Origin: an uncultured Clostridia bacterium
GTDB taxonomy: Bacteria > Bacillota > Clostridia > UBA1212 > UBA1255
Assembly: GCA_904420095.1 (NCBI GenBank)
Contig: CAJFUB010000003.1
Location: forward strand, 1-64,000
DNA: 64,000 nucleotides
Direction of reading: 5' to 3'
The position numbers were made by a program, and so were the translations under genes. Shown one piece after another: positions 47,157 to 55,563 of this stretch; within the stretch, counting starts at the first letter, position 1; every line of letters starts with the position of its first letter. The notes below the pieces were generated by a model. That model saw only the letters and a list, made by a program, of their open reading frames with translations. It searched no databases and had not been told where the DNA came from.

Positions 47157-47230
47157 GCGGGTGTAGTTCAATGGCAGAACATCAGCCTTCCAAGCTGATT
47201 GTGAGGGTTCGATTCCCTTCACCCGCTCCA
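47157..47230 (+). tRNA. tRNA-Gly (anticodon TCC)
   Basis: A full cloverleaf: acceptor GCGGGTG/CACCCGC, anticodon stem TCAGC/GCTGA with loop CTTCCAA (anticodon TCC at 47189-47191), T-arm GAGGGTTCGATTCCCTT region and an encoded CCA. It is cotranscribed with the next tRNA, 7 bases away. Confidence 0.97.
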
Positions 47231-47237
47231 TTCTTTT

Positions 47238-47314
<77 letters not shown>

Positions 47315-47398: not shown

Positions 47399-48169
47399 AT
47401 GTTTGAAAAATATTTTAATAGGCCATATGAAACTCACGATTTTCCGTATTTTGTACCGGAAAAAGAATTGGATTATAATGTCGACTACGCCAAACGGATA
47501 ACTGATGAAAAATGGGTGTATTACCGATGGAGAGAAGATGTAGAACGTGGCGGTTGGAAAAGAAACGAAGAAGCCGCTGAAAAAATAACGGCTCATGGCG
47601 GATTAAATCTTGAAATATGTGCTGGACCCGGTGCTGGTTTTGCACTCGCCACTTTAATGAAAAACTATAACGCTAATATCATGCTAAGTGATTTATGCCC
47701 AACTGTTGTAAAAGAATGGTATAAACTTTTTCAAAACATGGAAAATCCCCCACCAAACATAGAATATGCGGTTTTTGATGTTTGCGATATGCCTTTTGTT
47801 GATAATAGCCTGGATGTTATCTCCGGGAGAGGTGCTATTATTAATATTGAAGGAAACAGGGATAGGGCTCTTAAAGAAATTTATCGTGTACTTAAACCAG
47901 GCGGCTTGTTTGTATTTGATTATGGTTTTGTTACGGAAGAATATTATAGTCGGATGCCCAAAACAGCACGTGAAATTATAAAAGAAAGATATCCAACAGT
48001 CTTTTGGGATTCATTAAATATTTTTGACGAATTGGGATATTCGAAGATTGAAATCGTCGAAAAGAGTACATGGTCTAATAAAGATGATGAGAGTAACCTC
48101 GCAGATCTTTGTAGAGAGTTAAATACTGAACTGATATTTTCATGTTTTATCCGATATTGTACAAAATAA
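47399..48169 (+). CDS. Class I SAM-dependent methyltransferase, unknown substrate
   Basis: A 256-residue methyltransferase. The SAM-binding motif I is LEICAGPGAGFAL (about 71-83), followed by motif II acidic residues (MLSDLC), FDVCDMPFVDNSLDVIS (motif III/IV region) and VLKPGGLFVFDYG (motif V/VI). It is AT-rich, unlike the genes to its left, and sits directly behind tRNA-Arg, so it is probably an acquired gene. AAGGGGGTG precedes the ATG. It may belong with the peptide-export genes of the island or be independent; nothing in its sequence shows the target. Confidence 0.82.
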   Translation: MFEKYFNRPYETHDFPYFVPEKELDYNVDYAKRITDEKWVYYRWREDVERGGWKRNEEAAEKITAHGGLNLEICAGPGAGFALATLMKNYNANIMLSDLCPTVVKEWYKLFQNMENPPPNIEYAVFDVCDMPFVDNSLDVISGRGAIINIEGNRDRALKEIYRVLKPGGLFVFDYGFVTEEYYSRMPKTAREIIKERYPTVFWDSLNIFDELGYSKIEIVEKSTWSNKDDESNLADLCRELNTELIFSCFIRYCTK

Positions 48170-48185
48170 GCAAATATTTTTCTTC

Positions 48186-48207
48186 GAGAGTTCAAATCCC
48201 TCCGCCG
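48186..48207 (+). other. tRNA 3'-end-like sequence, candidate att remnant
   Basis: This 22-base stretch begins GAGAGTTCAAATCCCTC, which folds as a T-arm (one mismatch) with a TTCAAAT loop, and continues CGCCG like an acceptor 3' strand. The rest of a tRNA is absent. It is not identical to either tRNA at 47157-47314. Lying next to a broken integrase, it resembles an att core left by an integrative element. Confidence 0.5.
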
Positions 48208-48249
48208 AAATGCCGAAAATATCTTTTTCATGTGGTTTAGACATAGAAA

Positions 48250-48290
48250 AAAGCCTTTCGTTAAAGTAAAAACGAAAGGCTTTGTTTTTT
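48250..48290. terminator. Strong hairpin terminator by the integrase remnant
   Basis: AAAGCCTTTCGTT (48250-48262) pairs perfectly with AACGAAAGGCTTT (48271-48283), with a T-run on the plus strand and an A-run on the left flank, so it may work in both directions. Confidence 0.85.
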
Positions 48291-48343
48291 AGAGTTTGGC
48301 TGAGAAAGTGAATTTTCCCGTTATTTTTCCGTTATTTTAAAAA

Positions 48344-48760
48344 TTATCCTGTGATTTCATCGCTTTTTGTGTTCTGCTTGGTTGAGGAGTGTTGAGCGTT
48401 GCAGAGGCCTTTTATACGCGAATCTAACTTTGCCGCAGCCTGCTGTTTTTGTGAATCTATAATATGGCCATATATATTCAAAGTGGTGCTTGTCTGTGCG
48501 TGCCCAATTATACCGGTTAATAGGCGCTTTTTCTAATGCTCCCATAAGTTTTGTGAGTTGCTCTTCATTAAAAAAACGCGCTTCCTTTTTGGCTACCTTT
48601 GGCGGCTTAATGTGTGCGCTGTCTGCCGGGTTATATGGGATAAGATCATCCCGGACGGCCTGATTTAAAATGCTGTTAATCAGCTTATAATGCTTTTGTA
48701 TTGTATTGTCGGAAATGAGTTTTTCGGCTCCGGATATATTGAACAGTTTTTTACTTTGAT
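48344..48760 (-). pseudogene. Broken tyrosine recombinase (phage/ICE integrase)
   Basis: Read leftward, one frame gives the core-binding domain and hinge (NTIQKHYKLINSILNQAVRD, DDLIPYNPAD, FFNEEQLTKLMGALEKAPI). After a junction near 48511-48522 a second frame gives the C-terminus GHAQTSTTLNIYGHII, which holds the catalytic His and Tyr nucleophile region. The middle of the catalytic domain with the Arg and the HxxR is deleted, and the 5' end is missing. The gene cannot be functional. It ends at the TAA at 48344-48346. Confidence 0.85.
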
Positions 48761-48841
48761 GCCAACGATGTCATTAACATATTTTCTTATGTAAGTACTA
48801 TTTATATCTACACCCGTGTCAATAATTACGATTTTATTCAT
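48680..48841 (-). pseudogene. Truncated subtilisin-family (S8) peptidase, start only
   Basis: A 53-codon frame starting with ATG at 48841-48839, overlapping the ABC exporter stop as ATGA, so it was translationally coupled. Its first 30 residues read MNKIVIIDTGVDINSTY and onward. The IIDTGVD motif is the catalytic-Asp motif (Asp8) of subtilases. After about residue 30 the DNA is that of the integrase remnant in another frame, so the rest of the peptidase (His and Ser motifs) was lost by deletion. Subtilases coupled to exporters commonly trim leader peptides. Confidence 0.7.
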
Positions 48842-50622
48842 ATTTGTTTATCCTCATGCTGATAATATGCTATTTGCATATTATACATTTTTGCGTATAA
48901 TCCGTTGGCTGCCATCAACTCATTATGTGTTCCGCTTTCAATAAGTTTACCGTTATCCAATACTATAATTTTTGTGCAAAATCGAGTTGTGCTGAAACGA
49001 TGTGATACAAATAAGGTTAGTTTATCCTTTCTCACTTCGTATGTAAGATGGTTCATATTTCTTTCTGCAAGCGGATCTAAAGAAGCGGTAGGTTCATCCA
49101 TCGTGAGAACACATGACGATTCTTTACATAATGCCCTTGCTATTATGAATCTTTGTTCTTCTCCTCCGGAAAATAGTATTCCATCAGATGAAAACTCATG
49201 TGTATAAGGCGTTTCGAGTTTATTCGGTAAATTATTGATTTTATTCAGCATTCCGATTTGCTCCAAAAACATTTCAGTATTTGTACCGACGTGTCCAAAA
49301 AGGAGATTTTCTTTTAATGTCAATGCATACATATTATAATCTTGAAAAGCAGACGCAAAAAAACGACAATACTCAATCCAGTCATATGAATATATGCTTT
49401 TTCCATTCAACAGGATACGCCCCGAATCTATTTTATATAACCTCAAAAGTAATTTTATTATTGTACTTTTACCCGCGCCGTTTTCTCCCACAATTGCGAC
49501 AATGTCATTTCCGGAAAAACGAAAAGAAAGATTATCCACAGCGGGGGATATCTGATTGGGATATGTAAAAGAAACATTTTCGAAAATTATATCGGTTATA
49601 TGCGTTGGCATCGGATCATGACCATCCAAACTGCCGCAGACAGGCAGCGCCATATAGCGTTCAGTTGCTTCATAATATAATGCCATTGTTGATAAAGTTG
49701 TATATGAATTAAATACTTGACGTATAGCGCCTGACATCATCAGAGCGGCCGAAATATAAATTAGAAAATCATACAATTGAATGTTATCTAAGCTGAATTG
49801 CCATATAGCAAAACCGTAAATACCAATTGTCTGTAATGCATTTATAAAGGCTAAACTTGCCTGGTATTTCATTTTTGAAAAAGACCGCTTGTTTTCAAGT
49901 GCGCGAATATTTTTCTCATTATTATTATATTTTGAAATTAAAAAATCCTTTATATTATATAACCGTTCCTCCGCACCATAATCAATACTAAACATTATTT
50001 CGCTTATATAACCACGTATGTGCCGTTTTTTTGAAATTGCCTTATTGTGCAATTGTTCTACTTTTACAGCCTTCTCATCTAAAGCAAAGATAACCAGCAA
50101 TGTCAACACAACAAAAACAACAAGCATAAAATGAACGTTAATAAAAATAATTGAGGTTGTAATTATCGTTATAATACGACCAAGCAAGACAGAAAAAATC
50201 TCAAATACAACATTTTGCGTTTGATAAACACCCATCAAGGCTTCCTCCTCAAACTCAAGACATTCATTGCTTTCTGCTGTTTCCAAACTAAGTCCATGCA
50301 GCTGCGCGTCAAACCTTCCGATGCGTATATTAAACAATTTTTCCTGCTCATTATTAATTTTTCGATTCACAATATTTTGCAGTAGTGATAAAAGCGGTAT
50401 TGCGGCTGTGATAGAAACGGCAAAAATCACCGATTGTTCTATCGTATATATGCCTGATGCTATCCTAAGCATAAAGGACGGTAGGAAAACCCCTACTAAG
50501 ACTTTCCCTTCAAAAAGGATGGCATTGATAATACTCAAAGGCATTATGATTTTTGAAAGCTTATGTTGTTCAACTAAATTCTTTTTTAAGAATTTGACGT
50601 TTTTTATTATTTTATGCATCAT
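48838..50622 (-). CDS. ABC exporter half-transporter (second of pair)
   Basis: A 594-residue TM-ATPase protein. Six membrane helices span about 25-320. The ATPase domain has Walker A VGENGAGKST, signature FSGGEEQR, Walker B VLTMDEPTAS and switch VSHRFSTTR. AT-rich, as is its partner. The start at 50622 is chosen after AGGAG; an upstream in-frame start overlaps nothing useful. It lies 51 bases behind the other exporter gene and overlaps the truncated subtilase by 4 bases. The pair very probably forms a heterodimeric peptide exporter of the kind seen in bacteriocin and RiPP loci. The substrate is not certain. Confidence 0.86.
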   Translation of the reverse strand: MMHKIIKNVKFLKKNLVEQHKLSKIIMPLSIINAILFEGKVLVGVFLPSFMLRIASGIYTIEQSVIFAVSITAAIPLLSLLQNIVNRKINNEQEKLFNIRIGRFDAQLHGLSLETAESNECLEFEEEALMGVYQTQNVVFEIFSVLLGRIITIITTSIIFINVHFMLVVFVVLTLLVIFALDEKAVKVEQLHNKAISKKRHIRGYISEIMFSIDYGAEERLYNIKDFLISKYNNNEKNIRALENKRSFSKMKYQASLAFINALQTIGIYGFAIWQFSLDNIQLYDFLIYISAALMMSGAIRQVFNSYTTLSTMALYYEATERYMALPVCGSLDGHDPMPTHITDIIFENVSFTYPNQISPAVDNLSFRFSGNDIVAIVGENGAGKSTIIKLLLRLYKIDSGRILLNGKSIYSYDWIEYCRFFASAFQDYNMYALTLKENLLFGHVGTNTEMFLEQIGMLNKINNLPNKLETPYTHEFSSDGILFSGGEEQRFIIARALCKESSCVLTMDEPTASLDPLAERNMNHLTYEVRKDKLTLFVSHRFSTTRFCTKIIVLDNGKLIESGTHNELMAANGLYAKMYNMQIAYYQHEDKQI

Positions 50623-50673
50623 ATCTACGTTTTCTCCTATTGTCAAGCCTTGCAAAGCAGCGCAAATCTGATT

Positions 50674-52464
50674 TTATTCCGAAATCTTCAGGCCAAATAA
50701 TTCGATCTGACTGTTGTATAGATTTGTATATATCCCATTGTGTTTTATCAAGTCACGGTGACTACCGTCTTCAATTAATCTTCCGTTGTCAAATACTAAA
50801 ATTCGGTCGGATAACGAGCAGCTTGCAAGCCTATGTGAAATAAACAGAACCGTTTTAGAATGAGATATTGAGCCGAATCGATTGTATATTTCAAATTCAC
50901 TTTGCGGCGATAATGACGATGTGGGCTCATCTAATATCATTACCTGTGCGTCAGCGCATAAGCATCTTGCAAATGCAAGCTTCTGCGTTTCGCCACCCGA
51001 AAGCTCAACGCCCTCATCCGAAAACGTTTGCGTAATATATGTTTCTAACCCGTTAGACAGAGCGTTAATGGTTTTTGTCAGTCCTAAATCCTCTATAACC
51101 TGTTGAATCGTTTGGAGTCTATCGTGCGTTATTTTTTCATCAGTGGGAAACACAAGATTATCTATTATTCTAAAATCAAATATATGATAGTTTTGCATCA
51201 CGGGCGCAAACAGAGAAATATAATCAGTGTAGTCTATGGTCTCAATGTTTACTCCATTGTACGTTATTATACCTTTCGATGGCTTATATAGTCCCATCAG
51301 CAACGATATAAAGGTTGTCTTTCCCGCGCCGTTTTGTCCGACAATGGATATCTTTTCTCCTAAACGTATTTTTAAGGTCAAATTCTTCAGCGCATATTCA
51401 GTTTGTCCGGGATATGCAAACGACACATCAATAAATTCAAACACACCTTCTCCTTGCGGTAAAGAATTAACTCCTTTGTTGGCAGAGGGCAATGTTAAGA
51501 AGGCGTAAAAAGCATTCAAATAAGTTAGCTGCTCATTGATTGAAATACATTGCGAAAGAATGTTGTCCACTGAACCTGCAACTTGCTGAAGCGCCGAAAT
51601 ATTCAAAGAAAAGTGTCCAAGAGTGATTTTAGACTTTAACACTTGAAAAATATTATATATGTATATTGTGGCATCCTGAGGAATACCAATAACGTAAGCC
51701 CACCATGTTTTTCTTGTTATGTAATGATTGTATCTTTGCGTGATATGATATACCTCGTCGATATTTTCGCCGAGCTTGCGAAGAATAAAATCGCTGAGTG
51801 AAAAGGCTCTTATTTCCTTTGCATAATTTCGCCAAGTAAGCCCATCGCGAAAATACTCTAATTTTCGCATTGCTATTGCCTTTTCAGATTCCGCAGTATA
51901 GTTTTTACGCGCAACCTTCATTTGGCTGATACCACGTAATAGAGAAAATGCCGTTATTAAGACATAAACATACAAAGGCAAGTTGCGTAATATAACAATC
52001 GCACTGAAAAACACGGCAATGGAGTTTATAATTGAAAAAATGCTTGACATGATTCCTTTAACGCTGCCCTTTTCACGACAGGCTTTTGAAAGCTCATACT
52101 CATTTCTTACATTTGGTTCAACTAACTGCTCGTAACGCAGTGTCATCAATTTTTCATATTGTATAATATCTATCTGATTATCATACTCGCTTTCAGCGAC
52201 TTCAATTCTGTACTGAACTATTGTGCTTATAATAGAAATAACCATTTGAAGCCCTACAAAGCCAAGAACGACCATCGCAGCCGCAAAATAAGAAGCACTC
52301 TGCAAATTTGTAATCAGCATACTCGGGAAAAAAATAAAAATATAAGCATTTGCAAGCTGAATTATTGTGCGTGCAGAATAAAGTAAAAATAGTATTTTCT
52401 TGTATTTGACCATCATTTTTGCGGCGTATATTAAGCTTTTAATTTTTCCACAACTGTGCTTCAC
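50674..52464 (-). CDS. ABC exporter half-transporter (first of pair)
   Basis: A 596-residue TM-ATPase protein with six helices (about 20-320) and a complete ATPase domain: Walker A VGQNGAGKTT, signature LSGGETQK, Walker B VMILDEPTSS, switch FISHRLAS. The start is GTG at 52464, with ATAGGAG upstream. It is the first gene of the leftward unit exporter-exporter-subtilase. Both nucleotide sites keep the Walker B Glu. No peptidase C39 domain is fused, so leader removal would have fallen to the lost subtilase (inference). Confidence 0.86.
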   Translation of the reverse strand: MKHSCGKIKSLIYAAKMMVKYKKILFLLYSARTIIQLANAYIFIFFPSMLITNLQSASYFAAAMVVLGFVGLQMVISIISTIVQYRIEVAESEYDNQIDIIQYEKLMTLRYEQLVEPNVRNEYELSKACREKGSVKGIMSSIFSIINSIAVFFSAIVILRNLPLYVYVLITAFSLLRGISQMKVARKNYTAESEKAIAMRKLEYFRDGLTWRNYAKEIRAFSLSDFILRKLGENIDEVYHITQRYNHYITRKTWWAYVIGIPQDATIYIYNIFQVLKSKITLGHFSLNISALQQVAGSVDNILSQCISINEQLTYLNAFYAFLTLPSANKGVNSLPQGEGVFEFIDVSFAYPGQTEYALKNLTLKIRLGEKISIVGQNGAGKTTFISLLMGLYKPSKGIITYNGVNIETIDYTDYISLFAPVMQNYHIFDFRIIDNLVFPTDEKITHDRLQTIQQVIEDLGLTKTINALSNGLETYITQTFSDEGVELSGGETQKLAFARCLCADAQVMILDEPTSSLSPQSEFEIYNRFGSISHSKTVLFISHRLASCSLSDRILVFDNGRLIEDGSHRDLIKHNGIYTNLYNSQIELFGLKISE

Positions 52465-53149: not shown

Positions 53150-53477
53150 ATATATATTTTATAACAACATAGATGATGAAGTCAGTGTAATAGTATATAA
53201 AATACTTATATAAGTCGGAAATTAGAAATTTATGTAGTTTTAAAAAATATTATTGGCAATTATAGGTAAATGTTTCGTGTTTTGCAATGACACAAAGTTT
53301 AGTAATTTTGCAGTTTGAAAATTAAAAAGAGATTAGATAAATTATAAACATATAAACTAAAAACAATAAATATATCGGAAACTAGAGGAGAATTTACACA
53401 TGATTCATTGCATATTTATTAAAAACGAAAATCACAATGAAGTAAATAAATGGTAATTTAATAAAAAGGTGCATATT

Positions 53478-54380
53478 ATGGGTGGATCAAATTTCAAAAA
53501 AAAATTATTTACTGGAGTAGTAATATTTATTGTTCTCTGTATTGGGATAGGAACTATCTATTATATACATAAATATACCAACCTTCCGAGTGAAGAAGAA
53601 CTAATAAATTATAATTCATTAGAAAACATATTACAAAAAAAAGATTCGCTATATATCGAACAAAAAATAGTTATGAAAGATAAAGAGGAAAAGATTGGGC
53701 AGATCTGTTATCTAGAATATGCAGAGGGTATAATAAATAAGTTTAATAGTTTTTATGATAATCCAATCGAAGACATATTTTACAACGGATATCATTATAG
53801 AAATTATCAAGACACAATCTATGCAGTATGTGAGAAAAATGCATTAAATCTTTCCTCAATGATTGATATTTTTTCCAGCTGCGTTCAATATCTGAATTCA
53901 GCTGGAGCAGAAAGGGTAAAGCCGCAAAAATTAGAAAGAAACGGACAGGGGTATATTCTTTCTTACAACTGGAAAACATCTTATGATACAAATGTTTTTC
54001 AACATGAACTTTCATTTCGATTTTCAAAAGATATGGCCTGTAAGGAAATAAAACAAGTAGAAAACGACTCAACGATAATATATTCATTCGAATATGGGAA
54101 TAAAAAAGATTACTTTAATAAAGTCCGGGATATCCATCAAAACACCTATATAAAGATAAATGTGACAAATATAAGCGAAAATGAAAGATCGTTTGGTCCT
54201 TGTAAAATTCCTACAGGCATGTATGTATGGATCGAGCATATGACACAGGCCGAACTTTATTTAGATGCTGACGGTATCGTACCATATACGGCAGCAACTC
54301 ATGTAGGACCAAACGCATGGATTACAGCGGAACCAATCTATCAAGATCTGTCATTATTTTTGAAGGAGACATATGAATAG
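53478..54380 (+). CDS. Membrane-anchored extracytoplasmic protein, unknown
   Basis: A 300-residue protein I do not recognise. A short KKK-flanked N-terminal helix (about 8-32) anchors it, and the rest is extracytoplasmic, Tyr/Asn/Lys-rich and beta-prone, with Cys residues at several positions and an AATHVGPNAWITAEP segment near the end. It forms an operon with the next gene, 2 bases away. AT-rich like the island. AAGGTG lies 7 bases before the ATG at 53478. Confidence 0.65.
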   Translation: MGGSNFKKKLFTGVVIFIVLCIGIGTIYYIHKYTNLPSEEELINYNSLENILQKKDSLYIEQKIVMKDKEEKIGQICYLEYAEGIINKFNSFYDNPIEDIFYNGYHYRNYQDTIYAVCEKNALNLSSMIDIFSSCVQYLNSAGAERVKPQKLERNGQGYILSYNWKTSYDTNVFQHELSFRFSKDMACKEIKQVENDSTIIYSFEYGNKKDYFNKVRDIHQNTYIKINVTNISENERSFGPCKIPTGMYVWIEHMTQAELYLDADGIVPYTAATHVGPNAWITAEPIYQDLSLFLKETYE

Positions 54381-54382
54381 AA

Positions 54383-54922
54383 ATGAAGCTCAACAATCAA
54401 TTGGTGAAAAACGCATATATAATATTTTTATTTATCAGAAAAATTGCGTTATATCTAATAATATCTTTCGTTCCAAATTTCTTATTCTATTTCAGCGATA
54501 GTCTGCAAATTGAAAGGCGGCAATCGCCCGAGGCTGATATGGAATTGATCAGCATGATTTTGAGCATCATTTTTATGATCACATTTGTTGCTTTGCTATA
54601 TTCAACCAAAAAGCATATTTTTGATATAGGCGTTACAGATCGCATAAAAATTAAAGATCAGGTGAAGTTTGAGACCTGTTTAGCGGTTGGCTCTATATCC
54701 ATATATCTACTAATATCCGCCATTTTAGCCATTTTTTTAGATGACAAAATGTTTAAAATCAGTCTTTATATTCCTCTGTTCGTATTTTATAAGTTTCTTC
54801 ATAATGCTTGGTTGTCGCTTGTGCTAGCTATTTTAATGTATATTCTATTTGCATTTATTGTGTTAGTGATTCCATATATAAAACGAAAACGTTCTAGCAA
54901 TAGAGAAGAAAAATTAGATTAA
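54383..54922 (+). CDS. Small polytopic membrane protein, unknown
   Basis: A 179-residue protein with four hydrophobic segments (about 12-37, 52-75, 98-121, 128-166) and a Lys/Arg/Ser-rich tail. No family recognised. It starts 2 bases after the previous stop, so the two products probably act together, perhaps as an immunity-type or sensory membrane pair; that is a guess from position only. Confidence 0.6.
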   Translation: MKLNNQLVKNAYIIFLFIRKIALYLIISFVPNFLFYFSDSLQIERRQSPEADMELISMILSIIFMITFVALLYSTKKHIFDIGVTDRIKIKDQVKFETCLAVGSISIYLLISAILAIFLDDKMFKISLYIPLFVFYKFLHNAWLSLVLAILMYILFAFIVLVIPYIKRKRSSNREEKLD

Positions 54923-54969
54923 TACGATAAAGGATAAATTTATAAAATAGAGTTTAAGTATAGATCATG

Positions 54970-55320
54970 AAATCAAAATTGCAGTTATTACCAATCGCTC
55001 TTTAGAAGCTTTTCTGGATATAGCACAGATGGCTTCTTACGAAGACAATATGACGCGACAGTGTTCTTTTTTGAATTCATTCGGAACCTTGTGTCATCCG
55101 CGTATTTGAAAGCAGAACTTATTGCGTTTGGGAACGCTATGCGGAATTTTTAAATCTTATTAATAAAGCAATCAAAAATATGCTGACAGGCTCGATCCAT
55201 CAAGCTAAAATGGAAAAACAAGCGACAGCTTTGCAAGCTCTGGATTACCGACTTTTTTCCTTGCTGGGAAGACTATCGCAGGATCAGCATATTTTAAAAA
55301 AGCTTGGTAACGGCGGATAT
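54970..55320 (+). pseudogene. Decayed coding fragments, unidentified
   Basis: One frame reads EIKIAVITNRSLEAFLDIAQ before a stop near 55108. A second frame from about 55110 reads CVWERYAEFLNLINKAIKN and QALDYRLFSLLGRLSQDQ. Composition is gene-like but neither fragment has a start or a family I can name. Together they look like the broken remains of one or two genes at the right edge of the island. Confidence 0.4.
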
Positions 55321-55324
55321 CCCA

Positions 55325-55563
55325 TACAGCGGAGACAAAACCGTAAACGGCAAATACAGCGGATGAAGAAATGATGGAAAATCATTGGGTATCAAATGAC
55401 ACAGACGGGATCCACCGGCTTGCATATGATCCGGGCCAGGCGTATCCGGTCAAGAAGATCGTGCTTTATCATATAAAATGCAATGTACTGATTGACTACA
55501 CGATACAGGGGCGCCGCGATTCTCTGCAGCGGAAGGATTTGTACAGAGACGGACAGCCACGAT
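55325..55563 (+). pseudogene. Discoidin (F5/8 type C) domain fragment
   Basis: DKTVNGKYS in one frame continues after a shift as MENHWVSNDTDGIHRLAYDP, then YPVKKIVLYH and DYTIQGRRDS: the strand order of an F5/8-type-C domain (D-x-x-V-x-G-x-Y, W-x-S, I-x-x-I-x-I-x-H, F-x-IQ-S-D). Base composition is host-like here, in contrast to the island just left. No start, signal peptide or remainder of the protein is found, so it is a gene fragment, and its abrupt left edge near 55,310 probably marks the island's right junction. Confidence 0.6.

Follow-up and report, generated by a model that had tools for sequence, protein, structure and literature searches.

The window analysed here, a stretch of 64,000 nucleotides from an uncultured Clostridia bacterium, appears to hold the ruins of a RiPP locus for peptide export and maturation, in which an intact pair of ABC half-exporters is preserved and the head of an S8 subtilase has been joined by deletion to a broken tyrosine integrase (Table 1). 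We place the probability of this reading at roughly 0.7. An earlier sequence-only reading, which had proposed a truncated RiPP locus with an integrase-linked deletion, was largely supported. The window is a decayed and mostly ordinary example of a known general kind of RiPP locus, and it offers a readable case of the loss of a modified-peptide locus with the exporters still intact; the intact relatives described below are of greater interest than the window.

Table 1. Features of the decayed locus and its left edge (positions in the window)
Feature	Positions	Strand	Evidence
tRNA-Gly(tcc) and tRNA-Arg(tct), at the left boundary of the AT-rich island	47157..47314	+	tRNA positions, GC profile
Gene for a SAM-dependent methyltransferase, lying between tRNA-Arg and the integrase relic; no proven link to the locus	47399..48169	+	ORF call, domain
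tRNA-3'-end-like repeat (T-arm), possible attachment-site relic	48183..48210	+	Repeat search
Terminator hairpin and integrase 3' end	48245..48367	.	Sequence match to contig C30
Tyrosine integrase C-terminal remnant, residues ~392-424 of a 433-aa relative, IGHAQTSTTLNIYGH, in another frame	48410..48508	-	Alignment
Tyrosine integrase remnant, residues ~160-233 of the 433-aa relative (spanning the end of the SAM-like domain and the beginning of the catalytic domain)	48519..48746	-	Alignment
53-aa ORF as it stands today: subtilase head, then ~21 residues from integrase DNA read out of frame	48680..48841	-	ORF call
First ~32 codons of a putative cytoplasmic QhpE-like S8 subtilase, catalytic-Asp motif IIDTGVD, ATGA-coupled to exporter 2	48746..48841	-	S8-head HMM, sequence search
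ABC half-exporter 2, permease and ATPase, without C39 domain	48838..50655	-	ORF call, domain and motif checks, tree clade
ABC half-exporter 1, permease and ATPase, without C39 domain	50674..52464	-	ORF call, domain and motif checks, tree clade

The two exporter ORFs (596 and 605 aa, respectively, for exporters 1 and 2) are both intact. Walker A, the LSGGE/FSGGE signature, Walker B, and the H-loop were complete in each, alongside the membrane domain, and both proteins were matched by ABC_tran (Pfam). In all of the nucleotide-binding motifs the pair is like MsbA/bacteriocin-type half-exporter pairs (PF00005), from which it differs in that neither protein has the N-terminal C39 motif of a peptidase domain and neither reached an equivalog cutoff in an NCBIfam scan. 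As judged from their sequences, the two exporters look functional. They lie in an AT-rich island of about 22 to 40% GC, compared to 50 to 57% in the flanks. The genome carries many exporters of this sort; a search of genome contigs with exporter 2 returned just two weak matches, at unrelated exporter loci, and a search of viral contigs returned none.

The stop codon of exporter 2 overlaps the next start codon (ATGA, positions 48838 to 48841), which opens a 53-aa ORF with the N-terminus MNKIVIIDTGVDINSTYIRKYVNDIVGIKVKN (start also given as MNKIVIIDTGVD) and with the catalytic-Asp motif of subtilases close to that end. The 32-residue head was scored against an HMM built from 17 different S8 heads of other genomes, the window head being left out of the build, and reached 22.3 bits (E value = 4.9e-5; about 9,640 sequences). 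The top score among 4,639 other ORF starts was 8.5 bits and that among 5,000 shuffled sequences was 12.1 bits; since even the best shuffle fell 10 bits lower, the likeness is beyond chance, and on sequence grounds the head is the start of an S8 subtilase. Its 32 residues, the sole basis for any finer placement, suggest the QhpE-like subfamily. Pfam and NCBIfam scans of the 53-aa ORF alone gave no subtilase match, probably because it is so short. When 291 genomes of the class were searched, the top foreign match to the head was found at the locus that we designated L083 (G083:C29), with 56% identity, where it covers the N-terminus of a QhpE-like S8 fused to TIGR04066. The catalytic His and Ser motifs are absent, integrase sequence taking over at position 48746, and no remainder of the S8 gene was found by tblastn with three S8 queries in the contig sequence searched.

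From about position 48746 onward, in a different frame, the DNA encodes a piece of a tyrosine integrase (LFNISGAEKLISDNTIQKHYKLINSILNQAVRDDLIPYNPAD...) that is joined directly to the protease head. This piece and the C-terminal piece, whose frames differ, were mapped on a 433-aa relative (L198), which indicated that the integrase is missing its first ~159 residues and a further ~158 internal residues (~234 to 391); a complete catalytic domain in a single frame is not present. The remnant, whose two pieces align to full-length integrases of the class, resembles the tRNA-targeting tyrosine integrases of integrative elements (Phage_int_SAM_5 plus catalytic domain), but large N-terminal and internal portions are gone in the window and the frame has changed. 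Searches of phage and plasmid records with the integrase gave a single distant match in each. At a minimum, the junction has cost the protease its remaining part (at least 200 residues, judging by relatives) and the integrase ~159 residues, which together make more than 1 kb. The descriptive claims of the sequence-only reading were thereby borne out: that two AT-rich ABC half-exporters are followed by an ATGA-coupled frame with the subtilase catalytic-Asp motif IIDTGVD at its start, and that the frame runs into a broken tyrosine integrase after about 30 residues.

In the proposed course of events, a tRNA-targeting integrative element would have lain just downstream of the locus, and a deletion from about codon 32 of the protease to about codon 160 of the integrase would have taken out the remaining protease codons along with everything in between. 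The second, internal deletion in the integrase and the change of frame suggest gradual decay and not one excision. Of the two routes that had been offered earlier, decay would be the one that agrees with these ordinary-looking lesions. We also considered insertion of an integrative element within or beside the protease gene, with later decay of the element, so that the insertion, and not a protease-to-integrase deletion, cut the protease. The start of the integrase remnant exactly at the end of the S8 similarity and the tRNA-like relic beyond the integrase at 48183 both fit such an insertion; however, the integrase piece at the junction begins at residue ~160 and not at an element end, and the S8 remainder is absent on the far side as well as elsewhere in the contig sequence searched, which makes this route improbable. 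That the junction is an artefact of assembly is very improbable, even though the genome is a draft of 50 contigs in which a homologous integrase 3' end lies near a contig end (C30), because the junction piece occurs only once in the genome (elsewhere, just the 3' end and tRNA-like repeats are present) and because several separate lesions point to real decay. Deletion with decay is more likely than either insertion into the protease or misassembly.

The terminator hairpin and integrase 3' end are 91% identical to sequence that abuts tRNA-Met elsewhere in the genome, on contig C30, and a homologous integrase 3' end in that position fits a tRNA-targeting element. The tRNA-like relic is a dispersed repeat without a second copy in the window, and therefore there is no clean att pair. 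Similar copies, with the downstream bases conserved, were seen at G000:C29:29266 and C8:80372; such dispersed T-arm-like repeats are possibly old attachment sites. Searches of the genus and family brought up no close relative in which the site was intact or empty. The closest left-flank protein among the relatives compared was 55% identical at best, i.e., these are distant relatives; two genomes of the genus had the left-flank genes but neither the tRNAs nor synteny further on, the tRNA-Gly/Arg block being missing from the syntenic place, and the right-flank gene had no match in the genus and family search.

The nature of the original locus is suggested by loci that contain related S8 genes. 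L083 encodes three 29- to 31-aa peptides ending in -CC, an S8-TIGR04066 fusion, a beta-lactamase-like protein, a radical SAM/SPASM enzyme that matches the Clo7bot and TIGR04463 models, a carrier-like protein, and two ABC exporters. Its three peptides (...ITLYKEKGxxCC) are in tandem (L083:5150-5525, plus strand), upstream of the S8-TIGR04066, radical SAM, and ABC genes, and matched no NCBIfam precursor family. L168 (G223:C166) has the order radical SAM, carrier-like protein, S8-TIGR04066, ABC, ABC. L169 (G270:C260) has, on one strand and in order, radical SAM, carrier, a 29-aa peptide, ABC1, ABC2, and an S8 gene that runs off the contig end, so that the order ABC1-ABC2-S8 is common to L169 and the window. 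The 29-aa peptide of L169 (MKKQLKKTMRKELSACYHVVPCKKYEGCC; L169:4728-4639, minus strand), located between the carrier-like protein and the ABC exporters, is likely the precursor. These three relatives, with radical SAM, carrier protein, and protease genes intact and tiny -CC peptides in two of the three, are open to experimental test. In the loci read, S8 proteases whose Asp motif lies within the first ~30 residues had a same-strand ABC exporter at a distance of 4 kb or less in 9 of 10 cases and a radical-SAM-like gene in 8 of 10, compared to an ABC exporter in 0 of 4 for S8s with a deep Asp motif; the counts are biased upward because L083 and L166 were chosen with a fragment or exporter match already known, and without these two the count is 7 of 8. 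The co-occurrence of exporters with subtilases in RiPP loci, cited as known in the sequence-only reading, was encountered directly, next to radical SAM maturases.

In a tree of 78 exporters, ABC1 and ABC2 of the window fell into two mirrored clades of five rows (support, 99 and 100) with identical partners, namely, L043, L045, L046, and L169. The ABC1 clade includes L169_2705_4534 and L043_10743_12530, the ABC2 clade includes L169_933_2714 and L043_8936_10792, and each window exporter groups with its L169 counterpart. Among the four partners, only L169 has an S8 gene beside the exporter pair; neither S8 nor radical SAM genes adjoin the pairs of L043, L045, and L046, and hence the exporters by themselves imply no RiPP. 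The window pair might accordingly be a self-contained exporter of peptides or of multiple drugs, like the pairs of L045 and L046, an option that the many such exporters of the genome would also allow, with the protease head adjoining by chance rearrangement only. Yet overlapping stop and start codons, like the ATGA that joins exporter 2 to the protease, are typically seen in true operons, and the gene order recurs with kindred exporters in L169; we therefore consider a chance association quite improbable. In a separate locus of the same genus, L044 (G004:C13:32000-44212), an exporter pair adjoins radical SAM, FkbH-like, carrier protein, HPr-kinase-like, and S24/PqqD-like genes, named by eye and not by profile; this is possibly another peptide-modification locus.

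Under the preferred reading of a decayed RiPP locus, a peptide-type ABC exporter still adjoins what remains of a putative leader protease. In the contig sequence searched, there was no carrier gene and no radical SAM/SPASM maturase, which L083, L168, and L169 all have; no good homologue of the L169 maturase was found in the window genome, and neither the region upstream of exporter 1, which has no convincing Cys-rich or RBS-preceded small ORF, nor the rest of the window yielded a convincing precursor. Given these absences, the former presence of maturase, carrier, and precursor is something that we infer rather than observe. The sequence-only reading had the deletion remove most of the protease as well as the biosynthetic genes. 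Loss of the protease stands, the integrase being joined straight to the S8 head; loss of biosynthetic genes in the same event is conjectural, because L043, L045, and L046 lack S8 and because L169 carries its maturase upstream of the exporters, a place where none is present in the window. By analogy with the relatives, the intact locus would have made a short ribosomal peptide, which would have been modified (the relatives use a radical SAM/SPASM enzyme and a small carrier-like protein), freed of its leader in the cytoplasm by the S8 protease, and exported via the exporter pair; after the deletion, the exporters would have been left without a visible peptide of their own.

In the qhp system, the subtilisin-like protease QhpE acts in the cytoplasm, removing the leader of QhpC after a radical SAM enzyme has crosslinked it and before the ABC transporter QhpF exports it (PMC7876137), and S8 proteases act in other RiPP pathways too (PMC10885120). 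The window protease would be of the same type as in QhpE/QhpD/QhpF of quinohemoprotein amine dehydrogenase (NF049966), with cytoplasmic leader removal after the radical SAM step and before ABC export, but just the 32-residue head is present, dehydrogenase genes were not seen, and relatives in the class score below the NF049966 cutoff. Clostridial Cys-rich radical SAM RiPP loci (Clo7bot TIGR04334, TIGR04463, TIGR04066, and TIGR04069) resemble L083 in the S8-TIGR04066, radical SAM, carrier-like, tiny Cys peptide, and paired exporter genes, although L083 scores far below the curated cutoffs and nothing but the exporters and the protease head survives in the window. The literature on Clo7bot/CLI_3235 yielded no paper about loci of this type. 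It is conceivable, if doubtful, that what remains here belonged to a radical SAM/carrier-protein RiPP subclass not described before, with 29- to 31-residue -CC precursors, a dedicated pair of exporters, and a QhpE-like protease that two relatives carry as a TIGR04066 fusion.

Elsewhere in the AT-rich island, two adjacent genes (303 and 179 aa; 53469-54922, plus strand) are divergent from the exporters and have no Pfam match, and the right edge (54940-55560) consists of broken reading frames with the look of gene debris.
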